The translations under genes were made by a program, and so were the position numbers. The notes under the pieces are model-generated. The model was not told where the DNA came from. It made no database searches and worked only from the letters and a program-made list of their open reading frames with translations. A DNA stretch of 64,000 nt, taken from the NCBI GenBank assembly GCA_019096065.1, contig JAGUCH010000005.1, positions 1 to 64,000 on the forward strand, written 5' to 3'. Every line of letters starts with the position of its first letter. The stretch's first letter is position 1. The DNA is from Paracyclopina nana (lineage: Eukaryota; Arthropoda; Copepoda; Cyclopoida; Cyclopettidae). This document shows, piece after piece, positions 12,001 through 46,100 of the stretch.

Positions 12001-15000
12001 ACCCAACCTAACCTTAATCCCCTAACCTAACCTAACCCTAACCTAACCTAACTCCAACCTAACCTAACCTAACCTAACTCTAATCCTAATCCTAACCTAA
12101 CCTAACCCAATCCCAACCCAACCTAACCTAACCTAACCTAACCTAACCTAATCTCATAACCTAACCTAACCTAACCCTAACCTAACCTCCAACCTAACCT
12201 AACCTAACCTGGAACCTAACCTAACCTAACCTAACCCTAACCTAACCTAACCTAATCCTAACCTAACCTCCAACCTAACCTAATCAGTCCCAACCTCTAA
12301 CCTAACCTAACCTAACCTAACTCTAACCTAATCCTAACTCTAACCTAACCTAATCCCTAATCCTAACCTAACCCAACCTAACCTAACCCAACCTAAATTC
12401 CTAACCTAACCTAACCTAATCTCTTAATCCTAACCTAACCTAACCCTTAACTCTCAACCTAACCTAATCCCAATCCTAACCTAACCTAACCTAACCCAAC
12501 CTAACCTAACCTAACGCCTAACCTAACCTAACCTAACCCAACCTAACCTAATCCTAACTCCAATCCTCCAACCTAACCTAACCTAATCCCAACCTAACCT
12601 AACCTAACCGTGCAACCTAACCTGTCCAACTCAACCTAACCTAACCTTTAACCTGAACCCCAACCTAACCTAACCTGCAATCCCAAATCCCAAATCCTAA
12701 CCTAACCTAACCTAATCCTAACCTAACCTAACCTAACCTGCAACCTAACCTAACCTAACCTAACTCCAACCTAACCTAAATCCTAACCTAATCCTAATCC
12801 TAACCTAACCTAACCCTAATCCTAACCTAACCTAACCTAACTCTAACCTAACCTAACCCAATCCTAACCTAACCTAACCTAACCTCCAACCTAACTGCAT
12901 CCTAACCTAACTCATAATCCCAACCCCAACCCAACCTAACCTAACCTAACCTAACCTAACTCCAACCTAACCTAACCCAACCTAACCTAACCCTAACCTA
13001 ATCCCAATCCTAACTTCTAACCTAACCTAACCCAACCTCCAACCTAAATCCTAACCTAACTGCTAACCCAACCTAACCTAACCTAACCTAACTCAATCTA
13101 ACCTAACCTAACCTAACTCTAACCTAACCCCCAACCTAACCTAACTCTAACCTAACCTAACCTAACCTAATCCTAACCTAACCTAACCTAACCCAACCTA
13201 ACTCCAACCCAACCTAACCTAACCTAACCTAACCTAATCCTAACCCCAACCTAACCTAACCTAACCCAGTAACCCCAACCTAACCAATCAACCTAACCTA
13301 ACCTAACTCTAACCTAACCTAACCTAACCCAACCTAACCCAACCTAACCTAACCTAACCTAACCTAACCTAACCTAACCTAATCCTAACCTCAACCTAAC
13401 CTAACCTAACCTAACCTCCAATCCTAACCCCAACCTAACCTAACTCTTAACCTAACCTAACCTAACCTTAATCCTAACCTAACCTAACCTAACCCAATCC
13501 CAACCTAACCCAATCCTAACCTAACCTAACTCTAACCTAACCTAACCTAACCCAATCCTTAACCTAGAACCCAATCCTAACCTAACCTAACCTAATCCCA
13601 ACCTAACCTAACCTTAACCTAACCTAACCTAACCTAACCTAATCCCTAACCTAACCTAACCTAACCTAAATCCCAACCTAACCTAACTCTAACCTAACCT
13701 AACCCAACCCAACCTAACCCAACCTAACCTAACCTAACCTAACCTAACCTAACCTAACCTAACTCTAACCTAACTCCAATCCTAACTCTAACCCTTAACC
13801 TAACCTAATCCCAACCTAACCTAACCTAACCCAACCTCACCTAACCTAACCTGAACCCAATCCCCAACCTAACCTAACCTAACCTAACCTAACCTAACTT
13901 GGTTCTAACCCACACCTAACCTAACCCAACCTAACCTAACCTAACCTAAACCTAACCTTCCAACTCTAACCTAACTCTAACCTAACCTTAACCTAACCTG
14001 TAATCCTAACCCAACCTAACCTAATCCTAACCTAACCCAACTCTAACCCAACCTCCAACCCAACCTAACCTAACCTAACCTAACCTAACCTAACCTAACC
14101 TAACCTAACCTAACCTAACTCAACTCAACCTAACCTAACCTAAACCTAACCCTAACCTAACCTGTTCCAACCTAACCTAATCCTAACCTAACCTAACCTA
14201 ACCTAACCTAACCTAATCTCTAACTCTAACCTAACCTAACCCCAACCTAACTTCTAATCCTAACCTAACTCCAATCCTAATCCCAACCTAACCTAACTCT
14301 AACCTAACTCTAACCTAACCTAACCTAACCTAACCTAATCCTAACCTAACCTCCCAACTCTAACCTAATCCTAACCTAACCTAACCTAACCTAATCGCAA
14401 CCTAACCTAACCTAACCTAACCTAACTTCTAACCCTAACCTAACCTAACCTGAACTCCAACTCTTAACCTAACCTAACCTAACCTAACCTAACCTAACCT
14501 AACCTAACCTAACCTAACCTAACCTAACCTAACCTAACCCAACTCTAATCTCTAACTCTAACCTAACCCAACCTCAACCTAACCTAACCTAACCTAACCT
14601 AAACTTCTAACCTGAACCTAACTCCAACCTAACTCTGTTCCAACCTAACTTCTAACTCTAACCTAACCTAACTCCTAATCCCAACCTAACCTAACCTAAC
14701 TCCAACCTAACCTAACTCCAACCTAACCCAACCTAACCGAACCTAACCTAACCCCAACCTAACCTAACCTAACCTAACCTAACCTAACCTAACCTAACCT
14801 AACCTTAACCTAACCTAGTTCAACCTAACCCAACCTAACTCCAACCTAACCTAACCTAACCTAACCTAACCTAACCTAACCTAACCTAACCTTAACCTAA
14901 CCTAACCTAACCTAACCTAACCCAACCCAACCTAACCTAACCTAACCCAATCCCAACCTAACTCTAACCTAACCTAACCTAACCTAATCCTAACCTAACC

Positions 15001-16035
15001 TAACCTAACCTAACCTAACCCAACCCAACCTAACCTAACCTAACCTAACCTAACCTAACCTAACCTAACCCTGAACCTAATCCTAACCCAATCCTAACCT
15101 AACCTAACTCTTAACCTAATCCTAACCCTTAACTCTAACCTAACCTAACCTAACCTAACCTTAACCTAACCTAACCTAACCTAATCCCAACTCTAACCTA
15201 ACCTAACCTAACCTAATCCTAATCCTAATCCTGTAATCCCAACCTAACCTAACCTAATCCTAACCCAACCTAACCTAACCCAACCTAACCTAATCTCCAA
15301 CCTAACCCCAACCTAACTCTAACCCTAACCTAATCCCTAACCTAACCTAATCCCTAACCCCAACCTAACCTAACCTAACCCTAACCCAACCTAACCTAAC
15401 TCCAACCTAACCCAACCTAACCTAACCTAACCTAACCTAACCTAATCCTAAATCCTAACCTAACTTCTAACCTAACCTAACCTAATCCCTAACTCTAACC
15501 CTAACTCTAAATCCTAACCTAACCTAACCTAACCTAACCTAACCTAACCTAACTCTAACCTAACCTAACCTAACCTAACCTTAATCCCAATCCTAACCTA
15601 ACCTAACCCCAACCTAACCTAACCTAACCCAACCCCAATCCCTAACCTAACCTAACCTAACCTAACCTAACCTAACCTAATCCCAATCCTAATCCTAACC
15701 TAATCCTAACCCAACCTCCAACTCCAACCTAACTCCAATCCTAACTCTAACCTAACCCAACCCAACCTAACCTAACCTAATCCCAACCTAACCTAATCCT
15801 AACCTAACCTAACCTAACCTAACTCCAACCTAACCTAATCCCAACCTAACCTAACCTAACCCAACCTAACCTAACCTAACCTAAACCTAACCTAACCTAA
15901 CCTAACCTAACTCTAACCTAACCTAACCTAACCTAACCTAACCTAACCTAACCTAACCTACAACCCAACACTAACCTAACCTATACTTCTAATCCTAACC
16001 TAACCTATACAACTAATCCTAACCTGCAACCTAAC
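1..16035. repeat. Telomeric (CCTAA)n array, degenerate
   Basis: Almost every base belongs to CCTAA or a close variant (CCCAA, TCCCAA, CTCTAA, CTCCAA, TCCTAA). Read on the minus strand this is TTAGG, the ancestral arthropod telomere repeat, running toward base 1, so base 1 lies at or near a chromosome end. Runs of perfect repeat alternate with variant units throughout, and variants become frequent and include CCTGAA, CCTGCAA and CTTCTAA toward 16 kb. I see no gene or retroelement inside it. The two short inner arrays further in are perfectly regular, so some of this variation may be consensus error rather than biology. Confidence 0.97.
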
Positions 16036-16938
16036 GTAAGTTACCCATTACATAAAAAGATGATCTTCAAGATGATCCATGATGATCCTGGGTATGCTTG
16101 CAAGTAAACGACGTAACTGGAAGCTGATTTTTGGCATGGTGGTAGACCTTGCCCCTGGCTACCTCTTCACCAAAAATCAGCTGATTCCACGTGTACGTTT
16201 TTGGGGCAGCCCTCAATACGTGTCAAAGTTAGGTTAGGCCCAAGCTCCCAGGCCTTAGGCCTAGGTGAAAAATTTCATTAATAAAAAAGATGCCCCTCAT
16301 CAAGATGAACAACTTTCCCTATGACCACTTTGCTCCAGCACCAACTCTGGCTTTACTACATAAGGTTTTCCGAGAGCCTCAATCACTACATAGGGTATAT
16401 ATATACTACTATGGATTCTTTGTACCAAACTGCAGACAACTGCACTAACGCCCCTGGCCCCGCCCCCAGGGGCCTAGGGGCCCCGGGGCTGGTACCCCCG
16501 GGTTCCTTAGGGTCAGGGCTACGCACTGGCGTTGGAATTGGCCCTCTACCCCAATCGGGCCCCAAGTTAGCCCCACCCCAGCTAACGGAGCAAACGACTA
16601 GAGACAGGGACTTTAACTTTTCACCCATTGGGGAATCGCTAAGCGATTCGCCCATTACCCTACCGCGATCTACAGCAACCTACCGCAACCCCCAGATGAC
16701 CTGGGGCCTAGGACCCTGATTTTGACCCCGATTTTGGGCCCTGCCCCACTATATACCCCGTTTCTTAACTACTGAGCACATTACTGACCCACTATACCTT
16801 ACATAGACCCTAACTTTGGCCCCCTGACCCCGATTTTGACCCCGTTTGGGGGGGGCCACCCCAAATATGGACCCCGTTTTTTTCGCAGATTTTCACTCGG
16901 AACGAGCCCAAAACTGACTTTTGAGATACAGCTGAGTC

Positions 16939-17172
16939 CTTTATGGAGCCAACTCAGCACAGTCAGCTGATTTCAAAACTGCTGAGTCACTTTCTCAGCA
17001 CTCTGTATCTCGGAAACTGTGAGAGATATCAAAAAACTTATTTAGCAAAAGTTGCTCAGCACCCCAAAATACCCTTATATACCAAGTCTCAGCATCTCAG
17101 CCAAGTGACTCAGCAATCCAAAATGAGCAAATACAGCAAAGTCATTGAAGCAAAAGTGTTTGCAAATAAATC
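16939..17172. repeat. Inverted-repeat arm, left, subtelomeric copy 1
   Basis: From TTTATGGAGCC through CTCAGCACAGTCAGCTGATTT, CAGCACCCCAAAATA and CAGCAAAGTCATTGAAGC to GCAAATAAATCA, this stretch matches the reverse complement of 21031-21265. The arms are about 235 bp and enclose about 3.9 kb. In copy 2 the arms are at 23638-23872 and 27735-27969. Confidence 0.85.
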
Positions 17173-17325
17173 AAACATCATTTTGACCGAGTCTCAGCAA
17201 AGTAAACAACCGACTCAGCAACACAAAATGACAAGATACAGCAAAGTCATTGAAGCAAAAGTTGTTGCAAATAAATCAAACATCATTTTGACCGAGTCTC
17301 AGCGAAGTAAACAACCGACTCAGCA
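17104..17325. repeat. 108-bp tandem duplication in the subtelomeric unit
   Basis: Two adjacent 108-bp units, each running from a CAAAATGA core through CAGCAAAGTCATTGAAGC, GCAAATAAATCAAACATC and TTTTGACCGAGTCTCAGC to AAGTAAACAACCGACTCAG. Because 108 is divisible by three, one frame stays open as a repeated peptide in copy 1. In copy 2 (about 23805-24027) an extra A in CAGCAAAAGTCAT breaks that frame, which argues against a protein. Confidence 0.85.
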
Positions 17326-18345
17326 ACTCTAAATGTTGAGCTACAGAGCTGAAATTTGATATGCAAGTAGCCCTTGATGTCCCCATCATTTCTTATTTTA
17401 TAAAATTTTCTGACAGACCGCTCCTTCTGGGACCCGATTTCCACACTTTGACCCCCAATATCTCAGCAACGGAGCGTCTCAGCACACTTCAATTTAGTGT
17501 TTTGAAGTCAGGCCGAGCTCCTCTACAAGTCTTGGTTCATAGTCAAGTCCATAAAATGACTTGCCAAAAAGTCGAGTTTTCCTAAGGGGGTAGCCTTAGA
17601 AAAAGTGACCGATTTTTCAAAGTGCTCGGATCGAGCAGAAACTTGGTACGATTGTTCTCCGTCACATTCTGAGCAGATAATCCCAAGTAAACATATGCCC
17701 AAAAACGCTCAGCAGCTGAGTTATTCAGGCTCCCATTTGACCCCATTTTCAGGTTTTTGCATCAGAACTCAGCAGAATGATGAGATATATGAAATGTCTT
17801 TACTGATAAATGATCACTGTCTTATGGGCTATTAGAAAGTGTCATCAGAATTTATCACAGCTCAGCTGGTTCTCTGCTGAGCAGGGTTTTATGCTGAGCA
17901 TATCTGGCTGAATAACTCCGCTGCTGAGCTGCTGAGCGCCAAATCCTTTGGTGTGCTGACTTATTGCATCTAGTAGATCATTTGTGCCAAGTCTCAGCCC
18001 AATCGGAGAACTCAGCGAAAATGAGCACTTTTTCAGGGGGCTCAGCAGCAGTAAACTTTGACGATCGATATCTCAGCAACGGAGCGTCACAGCTCGGATC
18101 AATTTACTGTTCTGAAGTCGTGCTGAGCTCCTCTACCACTTTGTACTTCAAAGCCAAGTCCACAAGTCCACTTCCAAGTCCGCTGGTTCTGTACTGCTGA
18201 GCGCTCAGCGCTATCTCAGCTCGTAGTTGTCCGATTTTAAAACTGTTTACTTCTGTGGAATCCTGAGACTCAGCAGATCATTTTTTCATTTCATAGCAAA
18301 GTTCATATCTCCACTTTTACTGGCGCTACCTCTTAACGAAAAGCC

Positions 18346-20010
18346 CTATGTAGTACGTAGTACATAGAGCTGCGTTTCATCCGTCTATTCAATACGAAAA
18401 TTCGAAAAATGCTCCGATTTTGGACCTCTTTACAGTTTTGGAAATGGGAGACCAAACTGAACACTTTTTGCTAAATAGTAAACAAGATAGCTCCGCTAGA
18501 AGTCTCCGTAAAGCTCAGCAGTTAGGCTTCTATTAAGCGAAAACTTTGGCGCGCGATATCTCCGGTTCTAGACCAGATATTTTGCCACAATTTGATGCTA
18601 TGAAGTCAGGGCAACCTCCTCTACAAGGTTTCAAGGTGTCAAAGACCGTAGACCGACTTTAATTTGATCGCTCGAAATTTGACGCGAGCCGTTTTTCGCG
18701 GAAAATTCCACTTTAGAATGCAATAAAGTCTTCAAATTCATGAAAAAGTCCAAGAAAACAATAAGAGGAAGCTTAGGAGGAAGAATTGACCCATTTCGGG
18801 CAGTTTTAAGCCCCAAAACAAGCCGAATTCGGGCCCAAATGCAAAAGTAAACAAAGTCTCTATATAGTAAACTTCGGCGCGCGATATCTCAGCAACGGAG
18901 AGTCTCAGATCACTTCTTTTTGCACCCAGAGATTCGTCTTGACATTCTCTATCACTTTTATAAGTAAGCAACTCAGCATCTCCGCTTTCAGTCTCCGTAA
19001 AACTTACCCGCTAGGCTGCTATTTAGCGGTACCGGCGCTCAGCGCTATCTCAGCTCGTTATTGTCCGATTTTAAAACTATTTATACCAATGGAATCCTGA
19101 GACTCAGCAGATCATTTTTTCATTTCATAGCAAACTTGATAAGTCAACTTTTACTGGCTCTACTTCTTAACGAAAAGCCCTATGTACTACGTAGTACATA
19201 GAGCTGCGTTTCATCCGTCTATTCAATACGAAAATTCGAAAATTGCTCCGATTTTGGATCTATTTACAGTTTTGGAAATGGGAGACCAAACTGAACACTT
19301 TTGCTACATAGTAAACAAGATATCTCAGCTCCTTGTCTCCGTAAAACTCAGCAGACGGATGCTATTAAGCGGTAAACTTTGGCGCGCGATATCTCCGGTT
19401 CTAGACCAGATATTTTGCCCCAATTTGATGCTATGAAGTCAGGGCAATCAGCTCTACAAGGTCTTTTTAGTAATCAAAGGCCGTAGACCGACTTTAATTT
19501 GATCGGCGAAAATTTGACGCGATCCGTTTTTCGCGGAAAATTCCACTGTAGAATGCAATAAAGTCATCAAATTCATGAAAAGTCCAAGAAAACAATAAGT
19601 AGAAGACTTGGCACTAAGAATCGCCGCATTTCGAGTAGTTTTAGGCCCCAAAACAGGCCAAATTCGTGCCCAAAATGAAAAGTAAACAAAGTCTATAGTA
19701 GTAAACTTCGGGAGCTATATCTCAGCAACGGAGAGCCTCAGATCACTTCTTTTTGCACCCAGAGATTCGTCTTGACATTCTCTATCACTTCTATAAGTAC
19801 TCAAAGTCCCTCAGCGCATTTTCGTTTACGAAGTTCTGTACTGCTGAGCGCTCAGCGCTATCTCCGCTTGTATTTATCCGATTTTAAAACTGTTTACACC
19901 TATGGAATCCAGAGACTCAGCAGAAACTACTTTTACTTAATAGCAAAATTGATATCTCCACTTTGCGCCCGCTACTTAACGAAAAGCTCTATGTACTACG
20001 TAGTACATAG
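18346..20010. repeat. Three internal modules with 22-bp palindromes (copy 1)
   Basis: A palindrome with core TACTACGTAGTA flanked by CTATG and CATAG lies at 18346-18367 (one mismatch, TAGTACGTAGTA), 19180-19201 (perfect) and 19989-20010 (perfect). Each follows AACGAAAAG and precedes similar sequence, so these are about 820-bp direct repeats of one module. Shared parts include GAAAATTCGAAAA, TTACAGTTTTGGAAATGGGA, GGCGCGCGATATCTCCGG and TTTTTCGCGGAAAATTCCAC. Confidence 0.88.
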
Positions 20011-21030
20011 CACTGTACTTAAAACTCGTTAAGCATGCGAAAATTCGAAAAATGCCCCGATTTTGGAACTCTTTACAGTTTTGGAAATGGGAGACCAAAC
20101 TGAACACTTTTGCTAAATAGTAAACAAGATAGCTCAGCTAGAAGTCTCCGTAAAGCTCAGCAGTTAGGCTGCTATTAAGCGAAAACTTTGGCGCGCGATA
20201 TCTCCGGTTCTAGACCAGATATTTTGCCACAATTTGATGCTATGAAGTCAGGGCAACCTCCTCTACAAGGTTTCAAGGTGTCAAAGGCCGTAGACCGACT
20301 TTAATTTGATCGCTCGAAATTTGACGCGAGCCGTTTTTCGCGGAAAATTCCACTCTAGAATGCAATAAAGTCTTCAAATTCATGAAAAAGTCCAAGAAAA
20401 CAGTAAAAGGAAGCTTGGCTGCAAGAATTACCGCTTTCCCGGCACTTTTAGCCCCAAAAACTGGCCAAATTCGAGCTAAAATGCAAAAGTAAACAAAGTC
20501 TATAGTTGTAAACTTCGACCCGCGATATCTCCGCAACGGAGCGTCTCAGCTCACTTCAATTTACTGTTTTGAAGTCGTGAGCTCATTCTCTACAACTTTT
20601 GCTTCAAAGTCATTTTCATATCTCAGCATTTACTCCCGCTCGAACTCGCACTTTTTGTGCTGAGCCAATTCCAAAATTCAAAGATGGAATCAAAAAGTTT
20701 ACTTATAAAAGTTCTAGAGAATGACTTTATGTATTCATGTATCAAAGGGCTTGGCAAGAGGGCAAGCCGTTGGCCCACAATCCTTGGAAGAGACATTATT
20801 CACTACAATGAACTTTGCGAATCAATATCTCAGCAACGGAGCGTCTCAGCTCACATCCATTTACTGTTATGAAGTCGTGCTGAGCTCCTCTACCACTTTG
20901 CATATCATAGTCAAGTCCATAAAATGACTTGGGAAAAAGTCGAGTTTCCCAAGGCCAGAGCCTTAGGGATTTTTCGACGATTTCGTCAAAAGCGGCCTAG
21001 CTCAAAAACAAGACCAGTTCTGAACTCAGT

Positions 21031-21265
21031 GATTTATTTGCAACAACTTTTGCTTCAATGACTTTGCTGTATCTTGCCATTTTAGGGTGCTGAGTCACTT
21101 TACTGAGATGCTGAGATTCGGTATGTTTACATATTTTGGGGTGCTGAGCAACTTTTGCTAAATAAGTTTTTTGATATCTCTTACCGTTCCGGCCCTACCG
21201 AATGCTGAGAAAACGACTCAGCAGTTTTGAAATCAGCTGACTGTGCTGAGTAGCCTCCATAAAGG
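21031..21265. repeat. Inverted-repeat arm, right, subtelomeric copy 1
   Basis: Reverse complement of the left arm at 16939-17172: GATTTATTTGCAACAACTTT, GCTTCAATGACTTTGCTGTA, TTTTGGGGTGCTGAGCAACT and AATCAGCTGACTGTGCTGAG all recur inverted. Divergence between the arms is clearly higher than between the two 6.5-kb units, so the inversion is older than the tandem duplication. Confidence 0.85.
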
Positions 21266-22524
21266 AAAGTGCTGGGAGCCAGAATCCAAAGTTTCATCGA
21301 GTTTGGGTGAAAAATAAGCCATCTAGGGCGGGTTAAAGTTTTGGGGTGACTCCCCAAGTCGGGGTCACGGACCGGGTCCTCGTAGCCCAAATCGGGGTCC
21401 AGAATCGGGTTCAGCACCCCCAAAAACCCTATAGAGGACACCGAGCACGTCCCGATATCTCAAAGGACCCCCGAGTTACCCCCAGGGCCCAAACTTGCCC
21501 CAAAACCTGCGCGCGCCACATGGCCCGCGACCGCCCAGCTATCGCTATTTGCCGGTCCGATCGGGTCGCGCGATACGGCAAATGAAAGCTGAGGCCAAAC
21601 TGAACAACTTTTATTTTATGGGTCATTGGGGTCAGACCCCCCCAAGAGGTAGTTGGAGTACATAGGGTACCCCATTTGGGACCCTGCGGGTACTAGGAGT
21701 GGAGCTAGCGCCAATCTGACTGCAGATTTGGATTCCCCACCCCTGAAAACCTGTCCGAGGACACCTCAGCCGACCCGATAGGCCACTCCACGTAGGAGTT
21801 GACCTCAGCCTGGGGGGTGGCTTCCTGCCAAAAAGTGCAGTTCACTAATAAAGTACCCCCAAATCGGGTCCTAACCCGATTTTGACAACTGATTGGGGTT
21901 CCCAGAGCCCAAGTTTCATAATAAGAATGAGAGGGTGTGGCCCCTGGGCCACTCCTTCTGAATCTTGGCGGGGTCAGCCTGCAAGGTTTCACTGTCTCTT
22001 CCGCCCCTAGCTCCCCAAATCTTTGCCCTCTTGGAACGGGACCAACGCCATCGGGTTCCCAGAGTTTGAAATCAATTTGGTGTTTTTTTTTCAGCCCATT
22101 CTACCTATGAAAATGAGGTCAACCCTGGCCTCAAAGTTGAAAATGGAGGCCAAAAAGTGAAAAATCGGGTTAAAACGATGATCCTTATGAAGCGAGCGGG
22201 CCAATCTAGAAGGTGGGCAAAAAAATTTCACTAATAGAAGTTGTAGGGCGTGTCATGAATGGGCTAGGATATAAAGGGTGGGCCGAGAGGGCACACCCCG
22301 TCCCGCCCATGGGCGGAAGAGACACCTTTTACAGATGAAACATAGAGTAAAACGGTTTTTTTAACCTAGCGGCCGAAATCAAAGGTGAATCGTGAAGGAC
22401 CATAAAATATCAAATTACCTACATGAAAATCGGGTTTTTTTGTATTAATGAAGTTTTTCAAGAGGGCAAGCCCCCAGGGCCCCAGGCTACGGAAGAGACG
22501 AGGATCATCCTTAGGTTAACTTAT

Positions 22525-22730
22525 CCTAACCTAACCTAACCTAACCTAACCTAACCTAACCTAACCTAACCTAACCTAACCTAACCTAACCTAACCTAAC
22601 CTAACCTAACCTAACCTAACCTAACCTAACCTAACCTAACCTAACCTAACCTAACCTAACCTAACCTAACCTAACCTAACCTAACCTAACCTAACCTAAC
22701 CTAACCTAACCTAACCTAACCTAACCTAAC
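22525..22730. repeat. Interstitial perfect (CCTAA)n array between subtelomeric units
   Basis: About 41 uninterrupted CCTAA units in the same orientation as the terminal telomere. They join the right end of unit 1 (GGTTAACTTAT) to the left end of unit 2 (GTAAGTTACCC). Confidence 0.97.
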
Positions 22731-25700
22731 GTAAGTTACCCATTACATAAAAAGATGATCTTCAAGATGATCCATGATGATCCTGGGTATGCTTGCAAGT
22801 AAACGACGTAACTGGAAGCTGATTTTTGGCATGGTGGTAGACCTTGCCCCTGGCTACCTCTTCACCAAAAATCAGCTGATTCCACGTGTACGTTTTTGGG
22901 GCAGCCCTCAATACGTGTCAAAGTTAGGTTAGGCCCAAGCTCCCAGGCCTTAGGCCTAGGTGAAAAATTTCATTAATAAAAAAGATGCCCCTCATCAAGA
23001 TGAACAACTTTCCCTATGACCACTTTGCTCCAGCACCAACTCTGGCTTTACTACATAAGGTTTTCCGAGAGCCTCAATCACTACATAGGGTATATATATA
23101 CTACTATGGATTCTTTGTACCAAACTGCAGACAACTGCACTAACGCCCCTGGCCCCGCCCCCAGGGGCCTAGGGGCCCCGGGGCTGGTACCCCCGGGTTC
23201 CTTAGGGTCAGGGCTACGCACTGGCGTTGGAATTGGCCCTCTACCCCAATCGGGCCCCAAGTTAGCCCCACCCCCAGCTAACGGAGCAAACGACTAGAGA
23301 CAGGGACTTTAACTTTTCACCCATTGGGGAATCGCTCAGCGATTCGCCCATTACCCTACCGCGACCTACCGCAACCTACCGCAACCCCAGATGACCCTGA
23401 GGGGCCTAGGACCCTGATTTTGACCCCGATTTTGGGCCCCGCCCCCACTATATACCCCGTTTCTTAACTACTGAGCACATTACTGACCCACTATACCTTA
23501 CATAGACCCTAACTTTGGCCCCCTGACCCCGATTTTGACCCCGTTTGGGGGGGGCCACCCCAAATATGGACCCCGTTTTTTTCGCAGATTTTCACTCGGA
23601 ACGAGCCCAAAACTGACTTTTGAGATACAGCTGAGTCCTTTATGGAGCCAACTCAGCACAGTCAGCTGATTTCAAAACTGCTGAGTCACTTTCTCAGCAC
23701 TCTGTATCTCGGAAACTGTGAGAGATATCAAAAACTTATTTAGCAAAAAGTTGCTCAGCACCCCAAAATACCCTTATATACCAAGTCTCAGCATCTCAGC
23801 CAAGTGACTCAGCAATCCAAAATGAGCAAATACAGCAAAGTCATTGAAGCAAAAGTGTTTGCAAATAAATCAAACATCATTTTGACCGAGTCTCAGCAAA
23901 GTAAACAACCGACTCAGCAACACAAAATGACAAGATACAGCAAAAGTCATTGAAGCAAAAGTTGTTGCAAATAAATCAAACATCATTTTGACCGAGTCTC
24001 AGCGAAGTAAACAACCGACTCAGCAACTCTAAATGTTGAGCTACAGAGCTGAAATTTGATATGCAAGTAGCCCTTGATGTCCCCATCATTTCTTATTTTA
24101 TAAAATTTTCTGACAGACCGCTCCTTCTGGGACCCGATTTCCACACTTTGACCCCCAATATCTCAGCAACGGAGCGTCTCAGCACACTTCAATTTAGTGT
24201 TTTGAAGTCAGGCCGAGCTCCTCTACAAGTCTTGGTTCATAGTCAAGTCCATAAAATGACTTGCCAAAAAGTCGAGTTTTCCTAAGGGGTAGCCTTAGAA
24301 AAGTGACCGATTTTTCAAAGTGCTCGGATCGAGCAGAAACTTGGTACGATTGTTCTCCGTCACATTCTGAGCAGATAATCCCAAGTAAACATATGCCCAA
24401 AAACGCTCAGCAGCTGAGTTATTCAGGCTCCCATTTGACCCCATTTTCAGGTTTTTGCATCAGAACTCAGCAGAATGATGAGATATATGAAATGTCTTTA
24501 CTGATAAATGATCACTGTCTTATGGGCTATTAGAAAGTGTCATCAGAATTTATCACAGCTCAGCTGGTTCTCTGCTGAGCAGGGTTTTATGCTGAGCATA
24601 TCTGGCTGAATAACTCCGCTGCTGAGCTGCTGAGCGCCAAATCCTTTGGTGTGCTGACTTATTGCATCTAGTAGATCATTTGTGCCAAGTCTCAGCCCAA
24701 TCGGAGAACTCAGCGAAAATGAGCACTTTTTCAGGGGGCTCAGCAGCAGTAAACTTTGACGATCGATATCTCAGCAACGGAGCGTCACAGCTCGGATCAA
24801 TTTACTGTTCTGAAGTCGTGCTGAGCTCCTCTACCACTTTGTACTTCAAAGCCAAGTCCACAAGTCCACTTCCAAGTCCGCTGGTTCTGTACTGCTGAGC
24901 GCTCAGCGCTATCTCAGCTCGTAATTGTCCGATTTTAAAACTGTTTACTTCTATGGAATCCAGAGACTCAGCAGAAACTACTTTTACTTCATAGCAAACT
25001 TGATATCTCCACTTTTACTGCCGCTACTTCTTAACGAAAAGCTCTATGTACTACGTAGTACATAGAGCTGCGTTTCATCCGTCTATTCAATACGAAAATT
25101 CGAAAAATGCTCCGATTTTGGACCTCTTTACAGTTTTGGAAATGGGAGACCAAACTGAACACTTTTTGCTAAATAGTAAACAAGATAGCTCCGCTAGAAG
25201 TCTCCGTAAAGCTCAGCAGTTAGGCTTCTATTAAGCGAAAACTTTGGCGCGCGATATCTCCGGTTCTAGACCAGATATTTTGCCACAATTTGATGCTATG
25301 AAGTCAGGGCAACCTCCTCTACAAGGTTTCAAGGTGTCAAAGACCGTAGACCGACTTTAATTTGATCGCTCGAAATTTGACGCGAGCCGTTTTTCGCGGA
25401 AAATTCCACTTTAGAATGCAATAAAGTCTTCAAATTCATGAAAAAGTCCAAGAAAACAATAAGAGGAAGCTTAGGAGGAAGAATTGACCCATTTCGGGCA
25501 GTTTTAAGCCCCAAAACAAGCCGAATTCGGGCCCAAATGCAAAAGTAAACAAAGTCTCTATATAGTAAACTTCGGCGCGCGATATCTCAGCAACGGAGAG
25601 TCTCAGATCACTTCTTTTTGCACCCAGAGATTCGTCTTGACATTCTCTATCACTTTTATAAGTAAGCAACTCAGCATCTCCGCTTTCAGTCTCCGTAAAA

Positions 25701-28700
25701 CTTACCCGCTAGGCTGCTATTTAGCGGTACCGGCGCTCAGCGCTATCTCAGCTCGTTATTGTCCGATTTTAAAACTATTTATACCAATGGAATCCTGAGA
25801 CTCAGCAGATCATTTTTTCATTTCATAGCAAACTTGATAAGTCAACTTTTACTGGCTCTACTTAGTAACGAAAAGCCCTATGTACTACGTAGTACATAGA
25901 GCTGCGTTTCATCCGTCTATTCAATACGAAAATTCGAAAATTGCTCCGATTTTGGATCTATTTACAGTTTTGGAAATGGGAGACCAAACTGAACACTTTT
26001 TGCTACATAGTAAACAAGATATCTCAGCTCCTTGTCTCCGTAAAACTCAGCAGACGGATGCTATTAAGCGGTAAACTTTGGCGCGCGATATCTCCGGTTC
26101 TAGACCAGATATTTTGCCCCAATTTGATGCTATGAAGTCAGGGCAATCAGCTCTACAAGGTCTTTTAGTAATCAAAGGCCGTAGACCGACTTTAATTTGA
26201 TCGGCGAAAATTTGACGCGATCCGTTTTTCGCGGAAAATTCCACTGTAGAATGCAATAAAGTCATCAAATTCATGAAAAAGTCCAAGAAAACAATAAGTA
26301 GAAGACTTGGCACTAAGAATCGCCGCATTTCGAGTAGTTTTAGGCCCCAAAACAGGCCAAATTCGTGCCCAAAATGAAAAGTAAACAAAGTCTATAGTAG
26401 TAAACTTCGGGGAGCTATATCTCAGCAACGGAGAGCCTCAGATCACTTCTTTTTGCACCCAGAGATTCGTCTTGACATTCTCTATCACTTCTATAAGTAC
26501 TCAAAGTCCCTCAGCGCATTTTCGTTTACGAAGTTCTGTACTGCTGAGCGCTCAGCGCTATCTCCGCTTGTATTTATCCGATTTTAAAACTGTTTACACC
26601 TATGGAATCCAGAGACTCAGCAGAAACTACTTTTACTTAATAGCAAAATTGATATCTCCACTTTTGCGCCCGCTACTTCTTAACGAAAAGCTCTATGTAC
26701 TACGTAGTACATAGCACTGTACTTAAAACTCGTTAAGCATGCGAAAATTCGAAAAATGCCCCGATTTTGGAACTCTTTACAGTTTTGGAAATGGGAGACC
26801 AAACTGAACACTTTTGCTAAATAGTAAACAAGATAGCTCAGCTAGAAGTCTCCGTAAAGCTCAGCAGTTAGGCTGCTATTAAGCGAAAACTTTGGCGCGC
26901 GATATCTCGGTTCTAGACCAGATATTTTGCCACAATTTGATGCTATGAAGTCAGGGCAACCTCCTCTACAAGGTTTCAAGGTGTCAAAGGCCGTAGACCG
27001 ACTTTAATTTGATCGCTCGAAATTTGACGCGAGCCGTTTTTCGCGGAAAATTCCACTCTAGAGATGCAATAAAGTCTTCAAATTCATGAAAAAGTCCAAG
27101 AAAACAGTAAAAGGAAGCTTGGCTGCAAGAATTACCGCTTTCCCGGCACTTTTAGCCCCAAAAACTGGCCAAATTCGAGCTAAAATGCAAAAGTAAACAA
27201 AGTCTATAGTTGTAAACTTCGACCCGCGATATCTCCGCAACGGAGCGTCTCAGCTCACTTCAATTTACTGTTTTGAAGTCGTGAGCTCATTCTCTACAAC
27301 TTTTGCTTCAAAGTCATTTTCATATCTCAGCATTTACTCCCGCTCGAACTCGCACTTTTTGTGCTGAGCCAATTCCAAAATTCAAAGATGGAATCAAAAA
27401 GTTTACTTATAAAAGTTCTAGAGAATGACTTTATGTATTCATGTATCAAAGGGCTTGGCAAGAGGGCAAGCCGTTGGCCCACAATCCTTGGAAGAGACAT
27501 TATTCACTACAATGAACTTTGCGAATCAATATCTCAGCAACGGAGCGTCTCAGCTCACATCCATTTACTGTTATGAAGTCGTGCTGAGCTCCTCTACCAC
27601 TTTGCATATCATAGTCAAGTCCATAAAATGACTTGGGAAAAAGTCGAGTTTCCCAAGGCCAGAGCCTTAGGGATTTTTCGACGATTTCGTCAAAAGCGGC
27701 CTAGCTCAAAAACAAGACCAGTTCTGAACTCAGTGATTTATTTGCAACAACTTTTGCTTCAATGACTTTGCTGTATCTTGCCATTTTAGGGTGCTGAGTC
27801 ACTTTACTGAGATGCTGAGATTCGGTATGTTTACATATTTTGGGGTGCTGAGCAACTTTTGCTAAATAAGTTTTTTGATATCTCTTACCGTTCCGGCCCT
27901 ACCGAATGCTGAGAAAACGACTCAGCAGTTTTGAAATCAGCTGACTGTGCTGAGTAGCCTCCATAAAGGAAAGTGCTGGGAGCCAGAATCCAAAGTTTCA
28001 TCGAGTTTGGGTGAAAAATAAGCCATCTAGGGCGGGTTAAAGTTTTGGGGTGACTCCCCAAGTCGGGGTCACGGACCGGGTCCTCGTAGCCCAAATCGGG
28101 GTCCAGAATCGGGTTCAGCACCCCCAAAAACCCTATAGAGGACACCGAGCACGTCCCGATATCTCAAAGGACCCCCGAGTTACCCCCAGGGCCCAAACTT
28201 GCCCCAAAACCCGCGCGCGCCCACATGGCCCGCGACCGCCCAGTATCGCTATTTCCGGTCCGATCGGGTCGCGCGATACGGCAAATGAAAGCTGAGGCCA
28301 AACTGAACAACTTTTATTTTATGGGTCATTGGGGTCAGACCCCCCCAAGAGGTAGTTGGAGTACATAGGGTACCCCATTTGGGACCCTGCGGGTACTAGG
28401 AGTGGAGCTAGCGCCAATCTGACTGCAGATTTGGATTCCCCACCCCTGAAAACCTGTCCGAGGACACCTCAGCCGACCCGATAGGCCACTCCACGTAGGA
28501 GTTGACCTCAGCCTGGGGGGTGGCTTCCTGCCAAAAAGTGCAGTTCACTAATAAAGTACCCCCAAATCGGGTCCTAACCCGATTTTGACAACTGATTGGG
28601 GTTCCCAGAGCCCAAGTTTCATAATAAGAATGAGAGGGTGTGGCCCCTGGGCCACTCCTTCTGAATCTTGGCGGGGTCAGCCTGCAAGGTTTCACTGTCT

Positions 28701-29227
28701 CTTCCGCCCCTAGCTCCCCAAATCTTTGCCCTCTTGGAACGGGACCAACGCCATCGGGTTCCCAGAGTTTGAAATCAATTTGGTGTTTTTTTTTCAGCCC
28801 ATTCTACCTATGAAAATGAGGTCAACCCTGGCCTCAAAGTTGAAAATGGAGGCCAAAAAGTGAAAAATCGGGTTAAAACGATGATCCTTATGAAGCGAGC
28901 GGGCCAATCTAGAAGGTGGGCAAAAAAATTTCACTAATAGAAGTTGTAGGGCGTGTCATGAATGGGCTAGGATATAAAGGGTGGGCCGAGAGGGCACACC
29001 CCGTCCCGCCCATGGGCGGAAGAGACACCTTTTACAGATGAAACATAGAGTAAAACGGTTTTTTTAACCTAGCGGCCGAAATCAAAGGTGAATCGTGAAG
29101 GACCATAAAATATCAAATTACCTACATGAAAATCGGGTTTTTTTGTATTAATGAAGTTTTTCAAGAGGGCAAGCCCCCAGGGCCCCAGGCTACGGAAGAG
29201 ACGAGGATCATCCTTAGGTTAACTTAT
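22731..29227. repeat. Subtelomeric repeat unit, copy 2 (about 6.5 kb)
   Basis: Second copy of the block at 16036-22524, starting and ending with the same bases. I estimate very high identity (well above 95 percent by eye). Differences seen include CCCCAGC versus CCCCCAGC at about 23272, an extra A at about 23943, CTTAGTAACG versus CTTCTTAACG at about 25862, and TATCTCGG versus TATCTCCGG at about 26907. All internal modules, palindromes and inverted arms are retained. No convincing gene is present. Confidence 0.95.
25044..26714. repeat. Three internal palindrome modules (copy 2)
   Basis: Perfect 22-bp palindromes with core TACTACGTAGTA at 25044-25065, 25878-25899 and 26693-26714, matching the three module positions of copy 1. 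All three are perfect here, whereas the first in copy 1 has one mismatch. Confidence 0.88.
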
Positions 29228-29510
29228 CCTAACCTAACCTAACCTAACCTAACCTAACCTAACCTAACCTAACCTAACCTAACCTAACCTAACCTAACCT
29301 AACCTAACCTAACCTAACCTAACCTAACCTAACCTAACCTAACCTAACCTAACCTAACCTAACCTAACCTAACCTAACCTAACCTAACCTAACCTAACCT
29401 AACCTAACCTAACCTAACCTAACCTAACCTAACCTAACCTAACCTAACCTAACCTAACCTAACCTAACCTAACCTAACCTAACCTAACCTAACCTAACCT
29501 AACCTAACCT
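29228..29510. repeat. Innermost perfect (CCTAA)n array
   Basis: About 56 perfect CCTAA units that end at CCTTAGGTTGATG, where unique chromosomal sequence begins. This is the proximal boundary of the telomeric and subtelomeric domain. Confidence 0.97.
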
Positions 29511-38456: not shown

Positions 38457-38933
38457 TCAACCAACGATTGTGGATTCACCAATATCAGTTGCATTAAATT
38501 CACTCACAACCACTGTGGAACTGCTTTCGCACTTTGACACCAGATGAGCATTTGACGAGATGATTGATATCGAGAATCCGGATGTGGCCCTTTTGATCTC
38601 CTCTTCCTGCTGCTTTTTGGCAGCCACTTGGAGTGTGCCAACCATTCGCATCTTGGCAAAAATCTTTGCCTTATTGACCACATTGGCATCAGCCGTCATG
38701 GCTTTTGCTCTCAAGTAGCGCTTGCAAGCATTGATCCTTGAGTCAATGGCATGTTTGGTATCTTCGGTGAATTTCGTGATGGCTGCATCAAAGTGGATGT
38801 AGACTATGATGAGAATAAGCAGAAGAAAGGATCCTGCCACCACGCCAGCCTTGATCCCCATGTTGCTGAAAAGGCCAGTTTGGCCTTCCTGATCACTCTC
38901 GTCATTCGTCATCATGATTATCCGATTTGTCAT
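38457..38933 (-). CDS. Small single-pass membrane protein, paralogue 1
   Basis: Intronless frame of 158 residues from ATG at 38933; a second in-frame start (MMTNDESD) is six codons on. Layout: acidic N-terminus, one transmembrane helix (GVVAGSFLLLILIIVYIHF), then a basic, helical region (FDAAITKFTEDTKHAIDSRI, CKRYLRAKAM, KIFAKMRMVGTLQVAAKKQQ) and a Ser-rich tail. The family is not recognised. It is clearly homologous to the next gene upstream (39021-39479), with well over half the residues identical from the helix to the C-terminus. FDAAITKF.EDTK and MSKCESSST/VSKCESSST are the best-kept blocks. Confidence 0.75.
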   Translation of the reverse strand: MTNRIIMMTNDESDQEGQTGLFSNMGIKAGVVAGSFLLLILIIVYIHFDAAITKFTEDTKHAIDSRINACKRYLRAKAMTADANVVNKAKIFAKMRMVGTLQVAAKKQQEEEIKRATSGFSISIISSNAHLVSKCESSSTVVVSEFNATDIGESTIVG

Positions 38934-39020
38934 CAACGGGAATAAGTCTTTAAAAGGCTTCACTTGGGAAATATTACATGGGTACGTGAGTATGCAAATT
39001 GAAAAGCCTTTAGAGATGAG

Positions 39021-39479
39021 TCAGCCAACAGTTGAGGAATCGCTCAAGTCATTTGTGGTGAAATCACTGGAAATGATGGTGGAACTGCTCTCACATTTGG
39101 ACATAGTATGAGCATCAGACGAGATGATTGTGACCGAGAGTCCGGTTGTGGCCTTTTTCAGCGTTTCTTCCTGCTCTCTCTTGGCAGCCAATTGGAGTGC
39201 TCCAATCATTCGTACTTTGGCCAAAATCTTGGCTCTGTCGCGTATCTTGAAATCAGCCTTGACAGCTTTGCGTCTCAAGCGACGTTTGTAGGCCTTGACC
39301 TTCGACTCAAAGGCCTTTTTGGTATCTTCGATGAATTTCGTAATGGCTGCATCAAAGTGTACGTACACAAAGATGAGTATAAGGATGACGACGGCTCCTG
39401 CCACTACGGCCAAAGTGATGCCATAGTTGCTGATAAGGCCAATTTGAGTGATATCAAAGGCCTCTTCTTCGCTTTGCAT
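39021..39479 (-). CDS. Small single-pass membrane protein, paralogue 2
   Basis: Intronless frame of 152 residues. The open frame extends upstream only to a TTG, so I place the start at ATG 39479 (MQSEEEAFDI). One transmembrane helix (AVVAGAVVILILIFVYVHF) is followed by FDAAITKFIEDTKKAFESKV, a strongly basic helix (KRRLRRKAVKADFKIRDRAK) and a Ser/Thr-rich tail ending SDSSTVG. It is a tandem duplicate of 38457-38933, in the same orientation, 87 bp apart. The positive residues after the helix suggest a cytoplasmic C-terminus. No known family. Confidence 0.75.
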   Translation of the reverse strand: MQSEEEAFDITQIGLISNYGITLAVVAGAVVILILIFVYVHFDAAITKFIEDTKKAFESKVKAYKRRLRRKAVKADFKIRDRAKILAKVRMIGALQLAAKREQEETLKKATTGLSVTIISSDAHTMSKCESSSTIISSDFTTNDLSDSSTVG

Positions 39480-39832
39480 AATACGAGAGTTGTTGGTGGT
39501 ATCGAAGCGCAAACACTAATATTGAGTGTGTTTGCACTTCCAGCCGTAAATAATAAATGAAGTAGGCAGGAATTAAAGGCCACCACTTCTTAGCTACTTG
39601 AGAAAGCCGCACGTTATGGTATTTCGGGTCCCTTGCAGTGCAGCAGTTACTGCAGTAATACCAGTTTATGAATGGTGGTTAATATACAATGTATCAAAAT
39701 GTGCACCACATTACAATAATTGGTATACATATAGTATACATAGTGCTTTATGAAAAGGCTACCACAAAAGCAATTTAACGTGAAAATAAGCAAGCACTTG
39801 GAGCCTTTTCTCAGAGAACTCGAAAATGACTT

Positions 39833-39858: not shown

Positions 39859-42800
39859 TCAAGTTGTGGCTGCAAGGTTGGCAGAGCCGTGCAAGGGGTT
39901 ATCAAATCCTCGCACTGTTGGTAGCTGGGATCGAACCCGAGGCCTCAGGAAGAAGAAGTAGACCGCGCCACTCAAGCCACAACCAAGGACAATCATGAAA
40001 AAGGCCAAAAGAGCCATGTTACCTGTAAAAAAGGGAGATGGCATCAATTAATTCGCCCGTGAGTCAGCTAAATACCATTTGAGAACAAAAACGAGCAAGG
40101 CCACCCCTCCAATAAAGGCCAAGATCAACATGGCTAATCCAAGGCCGGCCATTGCACCTAGTATGTTGTAGTATATGAATTGTTTGACTTTCATATTATA
40201 AAAAATTGCATGTGCCTAGATTTAAGATTATTTTCTTTGTATTTTTTTGCTCTGGCCTGGCATAAGTCCCTTGGGTGCATTATTGCTTACTTAAATGGCA
40301 CTTTGTTGTTTGTTATACTGTTGGAAAGCTTGTAATCTCACCTGGAGTGTAAATTTCATTAGGGTTGGCCTTCGGATTGCTGGGCTGAGTTCTGTCCACG
40401 GTTTCAAAGTAGCTTTTGTCTGCATACAATGCACCAAAAGCCTGCAAAAAAGTAGGATTGCAATTTCATTCACGCCTTTTTCCCTTACTACACTTACTCC
40501 ACTGGTTGTGGGAAGTTCAACTTTAAAGGTGCCCTTTGAGACCACAGCATAGAGGTTGTCCAAGGCTTCTTTTAGAGGCCTTTTGGCCTCTTCCGGAATT
40601 TTGCCCTCATCCGGAACAATGCCCTGAGGGTAATCTAGCAGAGTGAACAAAACATAGAGGGCGTTCTGGTCTGGCTCTTGAAACAGCTCAATGTTTTGAA
40701 CTCGTATTGGTGTCACTCCGGCAGATGCCGCCACCGCTGCTCTCACTTGATCCCTGGCAAGCTTGAGGCCTTGGTAAATGTCAAAATTGGAGTCGTAGCC
40801 AAGCTTGAGCATCTTGTGGCTCACCATCTCTTTGGCAAAGCAAGCTGTCACGTCAAACAGGTTGAAGTCGGGCTCGCCCTGCTTAAAGCCTACTATGTTG
40901 TACATCACCCTTGCTGATAAGTCATTGTACCTCTGAAAATGGCCTGCTGAATTATGAGGAAACACAGCAAATCTTAGCTTACGTTTGCGTCATAGGTCTC
41001 AATTTTGACAGGTACATGATACTGCGGGTCTTCATTGCCCACAATGGCAAACCTGCCTTGACTGTACCAGATGGCTGTGGTGAAGTTTACGTAAGGCTCT
41101 GCGTCAGAGCCTTTCTTGGCCTCCATTGTCAAATAACTCTTCATTTCAATGCCTCTCTCAGCAAACTGCAGGAAAGTCAAATTCATAGGCTTGAATGACT
41201 AATTTAATGATCAACTTACTATGCCATTGTAGGCAAATTTCTTGTCAAACCCCCACATTTGATTGGGACTCTCCATGTCAATCGTTCCATCCGGATTGAT
41301 ATGGATGTCTCCAGAGGTATCGATGCCAATATACGATATTGTGCAGTTTCCGAAGGATTGGTAAGTCCTGTACTTCAATCCGGACATGAAATCCTTCACC
41401 TCATTCACAAATCCTTGACCGTCTCCAGCATATGGATCGTCCGGATTGCCAAAGTCGATTGGCTTGTAGTCAGTGCGGCTGACTTTCATAGGGAAGTCGT
41501 AATACTCTTGTCGTGGCGACACTACCCAGAACGGCTTGTGATCTGGGATTAAAAATAATGTCCTGACCATGGTGAATGCACAAGTGATCAAGTTTATCAT
41601 GCTGAATCAACTTTGATTGAATTCGCATCAACCACAATCATCAGTGAACATGGGTGTTTTCAGTTCAGATTGTTTGAGAATGCAAAACTTCTCACTTGTG
41701 ATTTGAACATGGGTTGGACACAAGTTGACAATTTTCAACATTTTCAACTTTTACCTTCTGCTTGCGGCTTGTAGTGGAATATAGCCTCAGATAAGTAAGA
41801 GTAGTACTCAGGCACTTGTGGTACGCTTTCAGTCATTTGACGCCCTGCACACCAGAGGTCACTGGGAGGATCAAAATAGCCATAGGGCCTGGCAACTAGG
41901 AAATTGCTGAACTCAAAGTAGACTTCAATGAATTTCGGTGCCTCATTGTGGAAAACTTCTTCTCCAGTCATGATTGCCTGAACTGGAACAGACACATTGG
42001 TGCCACCGGTGCTTAACCAGTTGTATTGATCTGCAAAATAGAATGATTCACAAAAAATCCCATTATTAGTTAGAAATAAATCCACATTTATATGCATCAA
42101 GAATGATAAAATTTGTTCACCTGACCAATAGTAAATAATGCTGAATGTTCCCTTTAGATCAGGTTCATCAACTTTAACTTCTCCCTTGAAAGTTTTGCAA
42201 GGGATTCCATTGACTTGAGCTGGATCTCCCTCTGTGTAACTACCATCCATATGAAGCATGTGGGCCACACTGGGAAAAGCTGCACAAAAAGCATGAAATA
42301 AGCCCTCAAAAATCAATCAGTTTTAGGGTGTTTTTACTGTTTCCACCAATTCCCATCACAGCTGCTAGCAAAGAGTTTTCATGCAAGTTGTCAGCATTGC
42401 AAAAAGTGGCTGAAACAAAGGAGGTGTAATAAATAGCAGGTGCATAAGGTGTGGAGGTGCACAAGCTCACCTTCAACTGGATTGCCAAAGGTGGCAACTG
42501 ACAGGAATTCTTTCACTCCGGAGATCTCAGGGTTGTAAATGATTGACTCAGCAAACACAAATGCATTTTGCTTTGAAGGTAGGACAATTTCTAAAATCAA
42601 GTCATATTTTGGTAATGCAGGTAAATTGAGATTTGTTCTTTACCGGACTCATATTTCAAGTAGGCCTTGTCTCCTTCAACGGCCTCAAAAAAGGACACAG
42701 AAAGGCCGGCCCCTTCTCCAAGTCCTTTTTCTGCTGATCGTCGTGCCTTATCCACAATATTTGCTTGGATCCTTGTTGAGTAATATTCCGGCAAAGTGGG

Positions 42801-42866
42801 CAGCTGGCCCCAACTAAGGCCAACCAAGAAGGCCAAAAAGGCCAAAATTAATTGGGCTCTATGCAT
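39859..42866 (-). CDS. Single-pass membrane glycoprotein with alternative TM last exons
   Basis: Exons: 42866-42644, 42590-42471, 42409-42338, 42279-42121, 42030-41755, 41542-41220, 41165-40983, 40932-40498, 40441-40342, then either 40157-40048 or 40022-39859. Every junction is GT..AG and in phase; most introns are 50-90 nt. The N-terminus is a signal peptide (MHRAQLILAFLAFLVGLSWG). The extracellular part is about 600 residues with few cysteines (TFCNADNLHENS, IPCKTFKG, LWCAGR, FGNCTIS) and sequons NVS, NCT and NFT. Two candidate last exons each begin in the same phase and encode Gly-x-Met-Ala plus a transmembrane helix. Exon 10 (GAMAGLGLAMLILAFIGGVA) has a short tail ending WYLADSRAN (666 aa in total). 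Exon 11 (ALLAFFMIVLGCGLSGAVYF) has a longer tail with GFDNPLHG (684 aa). Joining exon 10 to exon 11 would give an immediate stop, so they are alternatives. The family is not identified; a resemblance to arthropod LolA-like-domain proteins is only a guess. Confidence 0.85.
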
Positions 42867-43195: not shown

Positions 43196-46100
43196 TCAAG
43201 CCTTGGCCTGTGCTTTGCCTTCATTGTCGGAAAGCTCCACTTCGTCGTTGTCAAGGCTGTCCGCAGAGTCATAGTCGCCATCATCTCCCTTTTCAATGTC
43301 CTCGTCCAGACTATCCGGTCCGGATGGCAAGCTTGACATTGAGACTGACCTTGAGCTCATCGCGGATCCAGAGTCACCGAACAAGGCTCCAAAGGCCATG
43401 CGATGCCTCCTTCGCCTCTTCGAAGAGGTCATGTACTTGAGCAGGGGCGAGCCTTTGGTGGTGTCATCGCCGAAGAGTCCAGCCCTGAACCTCCTGGAGC
43501 TCATGCCCAAAAAGGCCATGACAAAGACTCCGGACCAAGCGTTGAGCACTTGGAAGATGGGGAAAAAGTCGGGCATCTCCTTGTCCGGGAATTGCATGTA
43601 GGCAGGCAGAGCAAAGCCCCAAGTCATGCCAAAGATCATCACCATGATTGTCAATCCCGTGCCTAAATTGAATTGCAGTTGATCAATTGACTTGGCAAAG
43701 GACCTAACCCAAACTATTTACAACACCCAAGAATTATGTATTTTCTGGAAGCAATATCCTAGCCTATCACTTCCAGTAACATAAAAATGGTTCATTTTTT
43801 AGGGATAGTTAGCTTCAATGACCCCCACTAAAATTAAAAAATAAAACTTAACTTACTTCTTAGTAAAATCACTAGGGTATACAGAAAGGGTGATATAGCT
43901 ATGCTAAAAGTTGATTATTTCTAACCTGATTAATTTTGCATAATAAGTTTGGTAGCAAATATTAATAGTCTTAAAAAATAATAGATGCTAAACGTTTTTG
44001 AAAAATATGCTGTAATACGATTTCCTCGTGTTATAATTCAGTTTACCGATCCAACTCAGCTCTTTTACATCAAAGTTTTTTTAAGCAATTTGGGGGATAT
44101 TAAATACTTAATGGTCCTGGAACTTCATTAAAACACTCAAAAATCGTTTTTCAAAATTTAAAATTGTATATTTTGAGCTGTGGCATGAAAAATTGAGCCA
44201 TTAAATAACTGACCTCAGATTTCAAGATGGAAAAATACTCGTGTAATTACAGCCATCGCAGGCTCGGGCTAGTAAAGCTGTACTCGAGTTTTCCCATTTC
44301 AAAATCCTCTCTCAGCTCTTTACGAGCCCTACTTTATGATCCCTAGCTCGATATAAATATATATTATGTTATGTGAAGCTATAGGTCAGGATTGTTAAAT
44401 TACTACCAAATGAACCCTGAGAACATTAGCTTTCCAAAAAATGTATATTTTTTGGGTGTTGTAAAGAGTTTGTGTTAGGACTTTCTTCAAATCAATGTGC
44501 ACATGCCATTGATCCGGACGAATCCCGAATAATGATTAATAAAAGACCATTCCAGATTCAGCTATTCAGTGTTTTTCTTCAAAGTTTTACCTTGAGAGGA
44601 TAGCTGTTCGACAACACTGTCTTTCCTCGTCTTGGGCGTCGAGATGTTGAATACGATGACAAAGCAAAGTAGGACAGACAGGGCAGCCGCGATGAGCATG
44701 CCATAGAAGAAAATCATCTTGGTTTCATTGTACCAGCCGATGAAGGCCCTCGGGTCTCTGCCATAGTCCTCGCCGTACAAGTACATGGTTGCCCCGACAT
44801 CAATCATGGGCCATCCGTAGATCATGGGTATGTAGCCCCATGTCTTGCCCCCGATGATCCCGCCTGTGATGGCTCTGAAGGTGGCAAAGGACTCAGCGAG
44901 GAGGGAGAGGCAGAATGCCAGGAACCAGAACTGCTGGAACACAGAGATGGTGATGTTGTCGTGTCTGTCCTTCCGGATTGAGTCCGACTCTGCGACAAAC
45001 ATGGACACCAGTGCAACGAGACAGCAGAAGGCGCTGTTCAACCGGATGATGTGGAACATTTCCCATAGCCCCGTGTTGACAAAGACCACTGCCACAAAGA
45101 CCACCAGAATGAGGATGGACAGGGTGTATCCCACATATTTCACCGCCCACAGCCAGTCATACTCTGGCCCGTATTCTGGAGCTTGCACCATCTCGGCAAT
45201 CAGAGCTTTCAGAGAAAGCATGCTTATTTGATTAAAATGTACATGGGAGTTGTATCCATACCGAATGTTCCTGTGGTGTAGCATTCGCACACAGTGGACA
45301 ATTGCTCGGAGAGCACAGTGGTGCACTTGTCCGCTTCCCAGGCTCCATACCTGCCAATGGCCTCATTGTACACCACACACTTCCTCACCTCAATCTAGGA
45401 AAACATGGTCATATAATGTAGTAGATCCGGAATTGCAAGTATTTACGTTGGTGTCCAGGTCATCCTCGTGCCAGAGGAGTTTCCTCAGTGAGGTTTGGTG
45501 GTCGTAGTGGTAGAACCTGATGGTGATGGGCATGTACCTCATCTGCTCCGGGTCGAGCTTGCAGGAGGACAAGTCCTGCTCCAGTTTGTTGACGTTGGGG
45601 GACACCATGAGCTGCACACTCACCGGTTTGCTGTCCAGCTTCATTTCTCTGGCCCTGATGCTTTGGGGGTTTCGCAGTAGGGGTCCCATCTTGCCATAGC
45701 CATTGTAGATAGCGGTGAGAATGGTGAGCGCCTTGTTACCACAGAGGGACTCGTTGTTGAACTTGATGGTGGAGGGAATCTCGAGGAACTCTCGGTGGTC
45801 AGACCAGTGGGTGAAATTCTTGACGGTGTTGTTGGAGGCAAAGTCCCGGAGGTTGATCCGGGGTCCATACCTTTCGAGTGTGGCTGGGTACATCTTCATG
45901 GCAGTCATGGTGACAGCATTGGAGTGGGAATGGAACATCATCATCTTCTCGCTGGCATCGTAGTAGCCGGGAAAGTCCTCCTCCTCCCTCAAATCCGCGC
46001 TGTTCAGGTAATACATTGCATACTTTTCGATGCGCTTAACCAGTTTGGAGGCGCCCTCCTCATCCGGATCTAACACTATGGAATCCCAACCGGCTCGGTT

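Follow-up and report, generated by a model that had tools for sequence, protein, structure and literature searches.

Where does the protein encoded by this gene end? Behind its last shared exon, a single donor faces two acceptors on the minus strand, and the segment that follows each of them encodes a membrane helix and a tail, so that the locus raises the question of which of these ends is used, and whether both are. We find that the proximal segment (9a) and the distal segment (9b) are a genuine pair of alternative membrane-anchor coding segments; use of the proximal site is doubtful. In the reading that we prefer, with a probability of roughly 0.6, the gene encodes a type I surface protein and has two competing 3' splice sites in its terminal exon, a distal default site and a weak proximal one.

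The window, by which we mean the whole stretch of DNA analysed (positions 1-64,000), comprises the initial 64 kb of contig 5, one of 10 contigs in an assembly of 92 Mb. Positions 1-16100 are occupied by a degenerate CCTAA (TTAGG telomere) array of ~16 kb, with 2161 exact copies of CCTAA in 16,100 bases. TTAGG telomere repeats are typical of arthropods, and because the array spans its first ~16 kb, the window starts at a chromosome end. A subtelomeric tandem duplication (16200-22734 and 22895-29437) has 99.3% identity over 6.55 kb, its left edge being unmapped since the search began at 16200, and contains diverged (~85%) internal repeats of 1.5 kb; at 29220-29510, self-matches whose offsets are multiples of 10 point to a tandem array of short period. 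On the minus strand, two adjacent single-frame ORFs (38457-38963 and 39021-39512; 168 and 163 residues) align end to end and have one membrane segment each as judged by eye, and one of the two matches DUF4718 below threshold (19.8 bits against a cut-off of 27). A segment of a secretin-type seven-transmembrane receptor lies at 44562-45326, also on the minus strand (7tm_2, 27.0 bits against a cut-off of 20.6), and 46208-45390 and 43654-43196 resemble, by eye, exons of the same gene.

The gene under study has nine shared exons (42866-40342), which were placed from open frame plus splice site and whose exon and intron phases are consistent throughout. They are separated by introns of, in order, 53, 61, 58, 90, 212, 54, 50 and 56 nt, and encode 630 residues plus one base of the next codon at the exon 9 donor. 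The product is probably a cell-surface protein.

Table 1. Coordinates of the gene's exons, its two possible ends and the associated signals (window positions).
Feature	Positions	Strand	Description	Basis
Exon 1	42644..42866	minus	start codon and probable signal peptide	gene model; signal peptide by eye
Exon 2	42471..42590	minus		gene model
Exon 3	42338..42409	minus		gene model
Exon 4	42121..42279	minus		gene model
Exon 5	41755..42030	minus		gene model
Exon 6	41220..41542	minus		gene model
Exon 7	40983..41165	minus		gene model
Exon 8	40498..40932	minus		gene model
Exon 9	40342..40441	minus	last shared exon; phase-1 end at donor CAG/GTGAGA	gene model, splice model
Segment 9a	40048..40157	minus	C-terminus 1: transmembrane helix, tail KWYLADSRAN, TAA; weak acceptor ACATACTAG/G	
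9b acceptor region	40023..40067	minus	CTGAC (-42), CTCAC (-38), TTAAT (-26), TTGAT (-22), tract CCATCTCCCTTTTTTACAG	loose YTNAY search
Segment 9b	39859..40022	minus	C-terminus 2: transmembrane helix, 28-residue tail with GFDNPLHG, TGA; strong acceptor	
AATAAA	39833..39838	minus	would serve both forms	hexamer search

Both segments are in phase with the same phase-1 donor, across introns of 184 nt (to 9a) and 319 nt (to 9b) by their coordinates. Segment 9a reads GAMAGLGLAMLILAFIGGVALLVFVLKWYLADSRAN and then TAA, and 9b reads GNMALLAFFMIVLGCGLSGAVYFFFLRPRVRSQLPTVRGFDNPLHGSANLAATT and then TGA, giving full-length products of 666 and 684 residues, respectively. In these respects, the initial annotation was accurate: AG followed by GT at 40157 and at 40022 completes a glycine in each case (G-A-M-A... 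and G-N-M-A...), and its coordinates, phases and peptides, including the 9a tail ending in WYLADSRAN and the GFDNPLHG of the 9b tail, were all confirmed. It had also stated that 9a and 9b joined together would stop, and as one block their translation does end at the 9a TAA. The two starts are 135 nt apart and so lie in the same frame, with this TAA as the single stop between them; in one mRNA, both could be translated only by read-through of the stop.

The initial annotation had described the segments as alternative transmembrane last exons. Two in-phase C-termini that encode transmembrane segments are indeed present, but the segments do not behave as separate last exons. The gap between the 9a stop and 9b is 25 nt, shorter than each of the eight introns between shared exons (50-212 nt), and the sole AATAAA on the minus strand from 40341 to 39600 is the copy at 39838, which follows both segments. 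Separate alternative last exons were rejected on this ground, AATAAA being absent between 9a and 9b. Variant hexamers occur in the same stretch at 40243 (AATACA), 39752 and 39670 (both CATAAA). Given the common frame, the gap of 25 nt and the single AATAAA, we regard them as competing acceptors of one terminal exon, and the arrangement would be that of alternative 3' splice sites: two acceptors in phase with one donor, upstream of shared sequence and a common polyadenylation hexamer.

A membrane-like segment in phase with a donor may arise by chance, and the strength of 9a has to be judged against suitable nulls. The best Kyte-Doolittle mean over 19 residues is 2.97 in 9a and 2.28 in 9b. Among 964 non-coding ORFs of 36-70 codons, 58 have a segment of at least 1.6 in their final 36 codons and none has one of at least 2.97. 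Markov copies of the 319-nt intron (n = 5000) attain at least 1.6 in 290 cases, 2.0 in 68, 2.5 in 5 and 2.97 in none; for 615 genomic stretches starting with GTRAG, genes included, the corresponding counts are 47, 12, 3 and 1. Since 290 of 5000 Markov copies attain 1.6, the presence of any membrane-like in-phase segment is unremarkable and it is the strength of 9a that counts: 9a is too hydrophobic for a chance ORF. Its GC content is 0.48, against 0.32 in the preceding intron. The codon score of 9a (0.10 per codon) is attained by none of the 58 hydrophobic null ORFs and is the lowest of the gene, with 0.12 for 9b and 0.12-0.24 for the nine shared exons. Synonymous codon use does not discriminate (-0.02 for 9a and -0.03 to 0.08 for exons 1-9, with values at least as high as that of 9a in 7 of the 58 null ORFs). 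Codon usage therefore adds little on 9a.

The strengths of the splice sites were scored with a model built from 81 short introns, drawn from 20 stretches of 10 kb and from window positions 17001-64000, and seeded with GTRAG donors picked without an acceptor model (52 donors, length peak 50-65 nt). Two earlier models were set aside after their output was inspected: one had collapsed to one intron and the other was contaminated by chance sites, with 481 "introns" and no length peak near 55 nt. The exon 9 donor scores 8.31, exceeding 75% of the 81 model introns. For the 9b acceptor, the score is 9.62, and only 0.4% of the AGs in the sample score as high; for the 9a acceptor, it is 1.39, a value equalled or exceeded by 32% of them. 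The other acceptors of the gene score from 5.76 to 14.32. The 9a acceptor is below all 81 model introns (minimum 2.55), which were themselves chosen partly by acceptor score; in a set of 26 introns (46-68 nt) that was picked independently of the acceptor model, 6 acceptors score lower than that of 9a, and several of these look misassigned. Both discarded models also placed 9b above 9a (6.49 versus -7.17 in the first and 6.69 versus -2.34 in the second). YTNAY is the branch-point consensus, and in a loose search for it, the 9a acceptor has TTCAT (-19) and TTTAT (-42) as its only branch-like motifs and has no pyrimidine tract. As the 9b acceptor is strong and the 9a acceptor weak, 9b is the expected default, and the 9b terminus is likely to be so used. 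The 9a site would need help or is unused, and the 9a form may be minor, regulated or unused.

The same contrast between a strong 9b acceptor and a weak 9a acceptor would also be seen if only 9b were used and 9a were a recent intronic relic, i.e., an older terminal segment that has lost a good splice site. The codon usage of 9a, low in score and neutral at synonymous choices, fits this explanation. A relic should decay, however, and 9a keeps an uninterrupted frame of 35 codons that is in phase and encodes a strongly hydrophobic segment. We consider this explanation unlikely, while giving it real weight. The converse, that 9a is the main terminus and 9b a minor one, would suit the more hydrophobic anchor of 9a and its position nearer to the donor, across the shorter of the two introns, but the acceptor scores favour 9b and make this very unlikely. 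Lower still we rate the suggestion that 9a, or each of the two segments, forms a small stand-alone ORF with its own ATG as start. GCAATGG and AACATGG do resemble the consensus start context, and upstream of 9a no stop interrupts its frame as far as an in-frame ATG at 40194; against this, the good exon 9 donor needs a partner, and a protein with a signal peptide and a terminal membrane helix fits the spliced model. Read-through of the TAA, joining 9a and 9b in one protein with a two-helix C-terminus, is scarcely credible, for although 9a, TAA and 9b form one frame without another stop, the 9b tail would end up outside the cell, the strong 9b acceptor would be left unexplained and TAA TTG is not known as a leaky stop context.

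Under the preferred reading of two competing sites in one terminal exon, splicing to the strong distal site at 40022 would yield the 684-residue form, in which the transmembrane helix is followed by a basic tail of 28 residues carrying GFDNPLHG, while splicing to the weak proximal site at 40157 would yield the 666-residue form, in which another helix of higher hydrophobicity is followed by a tail of ten residues. The latter form would end at the TAA at 40048, and 9b would then be 3' untranslated sequence. A stop codon in the last exon is not expected to trigger nonsense-mediated decay, and decay of the 9a form is not expected because its stop has this position. While the sequence, the frames, both helices and the site scores are plain observations, we infer that both forms are made, with the distal one as the default, and that the difference in tail alters trafficking or signalling. 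Retention of the last intron would make the protein stop after PGEITSFPTV without a membrane helix (40341-40311, minus strand); judging from the reading frame, a soluble form could possibly arise in this way. The first three branch-point-like motifs of 9b (CTGAC, CTCAC and TTAAT) overlap the final codons of 9a or its stop, and because these matches sit there, the uses of 9a and 9b would, by motif, overlap on the RNA. It is conceivable, but quite unlikely, that this amounts to a compact switch in which the last codons and stop of 9a double as the branch-point region of 9b, the two sites interfere and, together with intron retention, three C-termini result (a soluble form, a short-tailed anchor and a long-tailed anchor).

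Two further proposals of the initial annotation fared less well. From the matching starts of 9a and 9b, it had suggested an exon duplication, but GT after AG dictates glycine, so that these starts are weak evidence, and free alignments are at chance level. In a fixed register anchored at the splice sites, which was picked post hoc, 9 of 30 residues are identical (P by shuffling 0.011 for identity, 0.032 for the BLOSUM score), as are 35 of the first 80 bases (codon-shuffle P = 0.035); free local alignment of the two segments finds no significant similarity in protein (P = 0.51), DNA (P = 0.17) or upstream flanks (P = 0.26). Duplicated mutually exclusive exons were rejected for want of significant similarity between 9a and 9b. 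GFDNPLHG had been put forward as an NPx-type sorting signal, which is likewise not supported. The NPxY consensus needs Tyr or Phe after NPx, and FDNPLH has His in the aromatic position. Nor is GFDNP enriched: the genome contains its codon pattern 4 times, against 0 and 1 for controls and 3 for the reversed peptide, and none of the other three places follows a membrane helix by eye.

Searches for relatives place the gene in no family. Pfam gave no match for the two full-length proteins (E 1) or for the exon-8 piece (E 10), and the best match in the PDB, to pyruvate phosphate dikinase over 66 residues (E 0.01), was rejected as a chance match to an unrelated enzyme. In DNA and protein searches of its own 92-Mb genome, the region matches only itself at the sensitivity of those searches, of which the protein searches scored 1 to 6 first-look candidates. 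Pattern matches in viral_contigs (1) and genome_contigs (8) include no relative; these are bacterial, archaeal and viral collections, where an animal gene is not expected. For the exon-8 piece of 119 residues, a one-sequence AlphaFold model had a mean pLDDT of 38.2 and could not be used. The literature searches turned up nothing on this gene, although this does not mean that the gene is unpublished. LolA-like metazoan surface proteins offer a possible likeness, as a lead only, and we do not file the gene as a member. By eye, it shares with them a pair of ectodomain stretches with faint similarity, a third domain and a helix at the C-terminus; it differs in having no Pfam match and no convincing PDB match, and its two stretches compared with each other give a BLASTP E of 1.2, which is not significant, and 19% identity in a forced alignment. 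PMC12419801 treats bacterial LolA and is not relevant to this gene.

Two complete helices in one exon and one frame, with one stop between them, are a tidy arrangement that is mechanistically ordinary if used. If both forms are made, a single choice of acceptor sets the anchor and the cytoplasmic tail for one ectodomain. Terminal exons in which alternative 3' splice sites change the C-terminus form a well-known general class, and the gene resembles this class in having one donor, two acceptors and one poly(A) signal and in that the upstream choice makes the downstream coding part 3' untranslated; it is unlike the class in that each choice encodes a complete membrane helix. In Drosophila, the alternative exons 17.1 and 17.2 of Dscam encode the transmembrane segment, and the choice between them directs the protein to dendrites or axons, as described in the relevant passages of PMC2566808 and PMC3364881. 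This is the closest parallel that we found, being likewise a choice between two transmembrane-coding segments in a surface protein. The Dscam segments, as presented there, are mutually exclusive internal exons that are followed by further endodomain exons and whose use is proven, whereas our two segments share a single terminal exon, bring entirely different tails and are candidates for use. If both forms are made, the gene would offer a small and easily tested case of a splice-controlled surface protein like that of Dscam exon 17.
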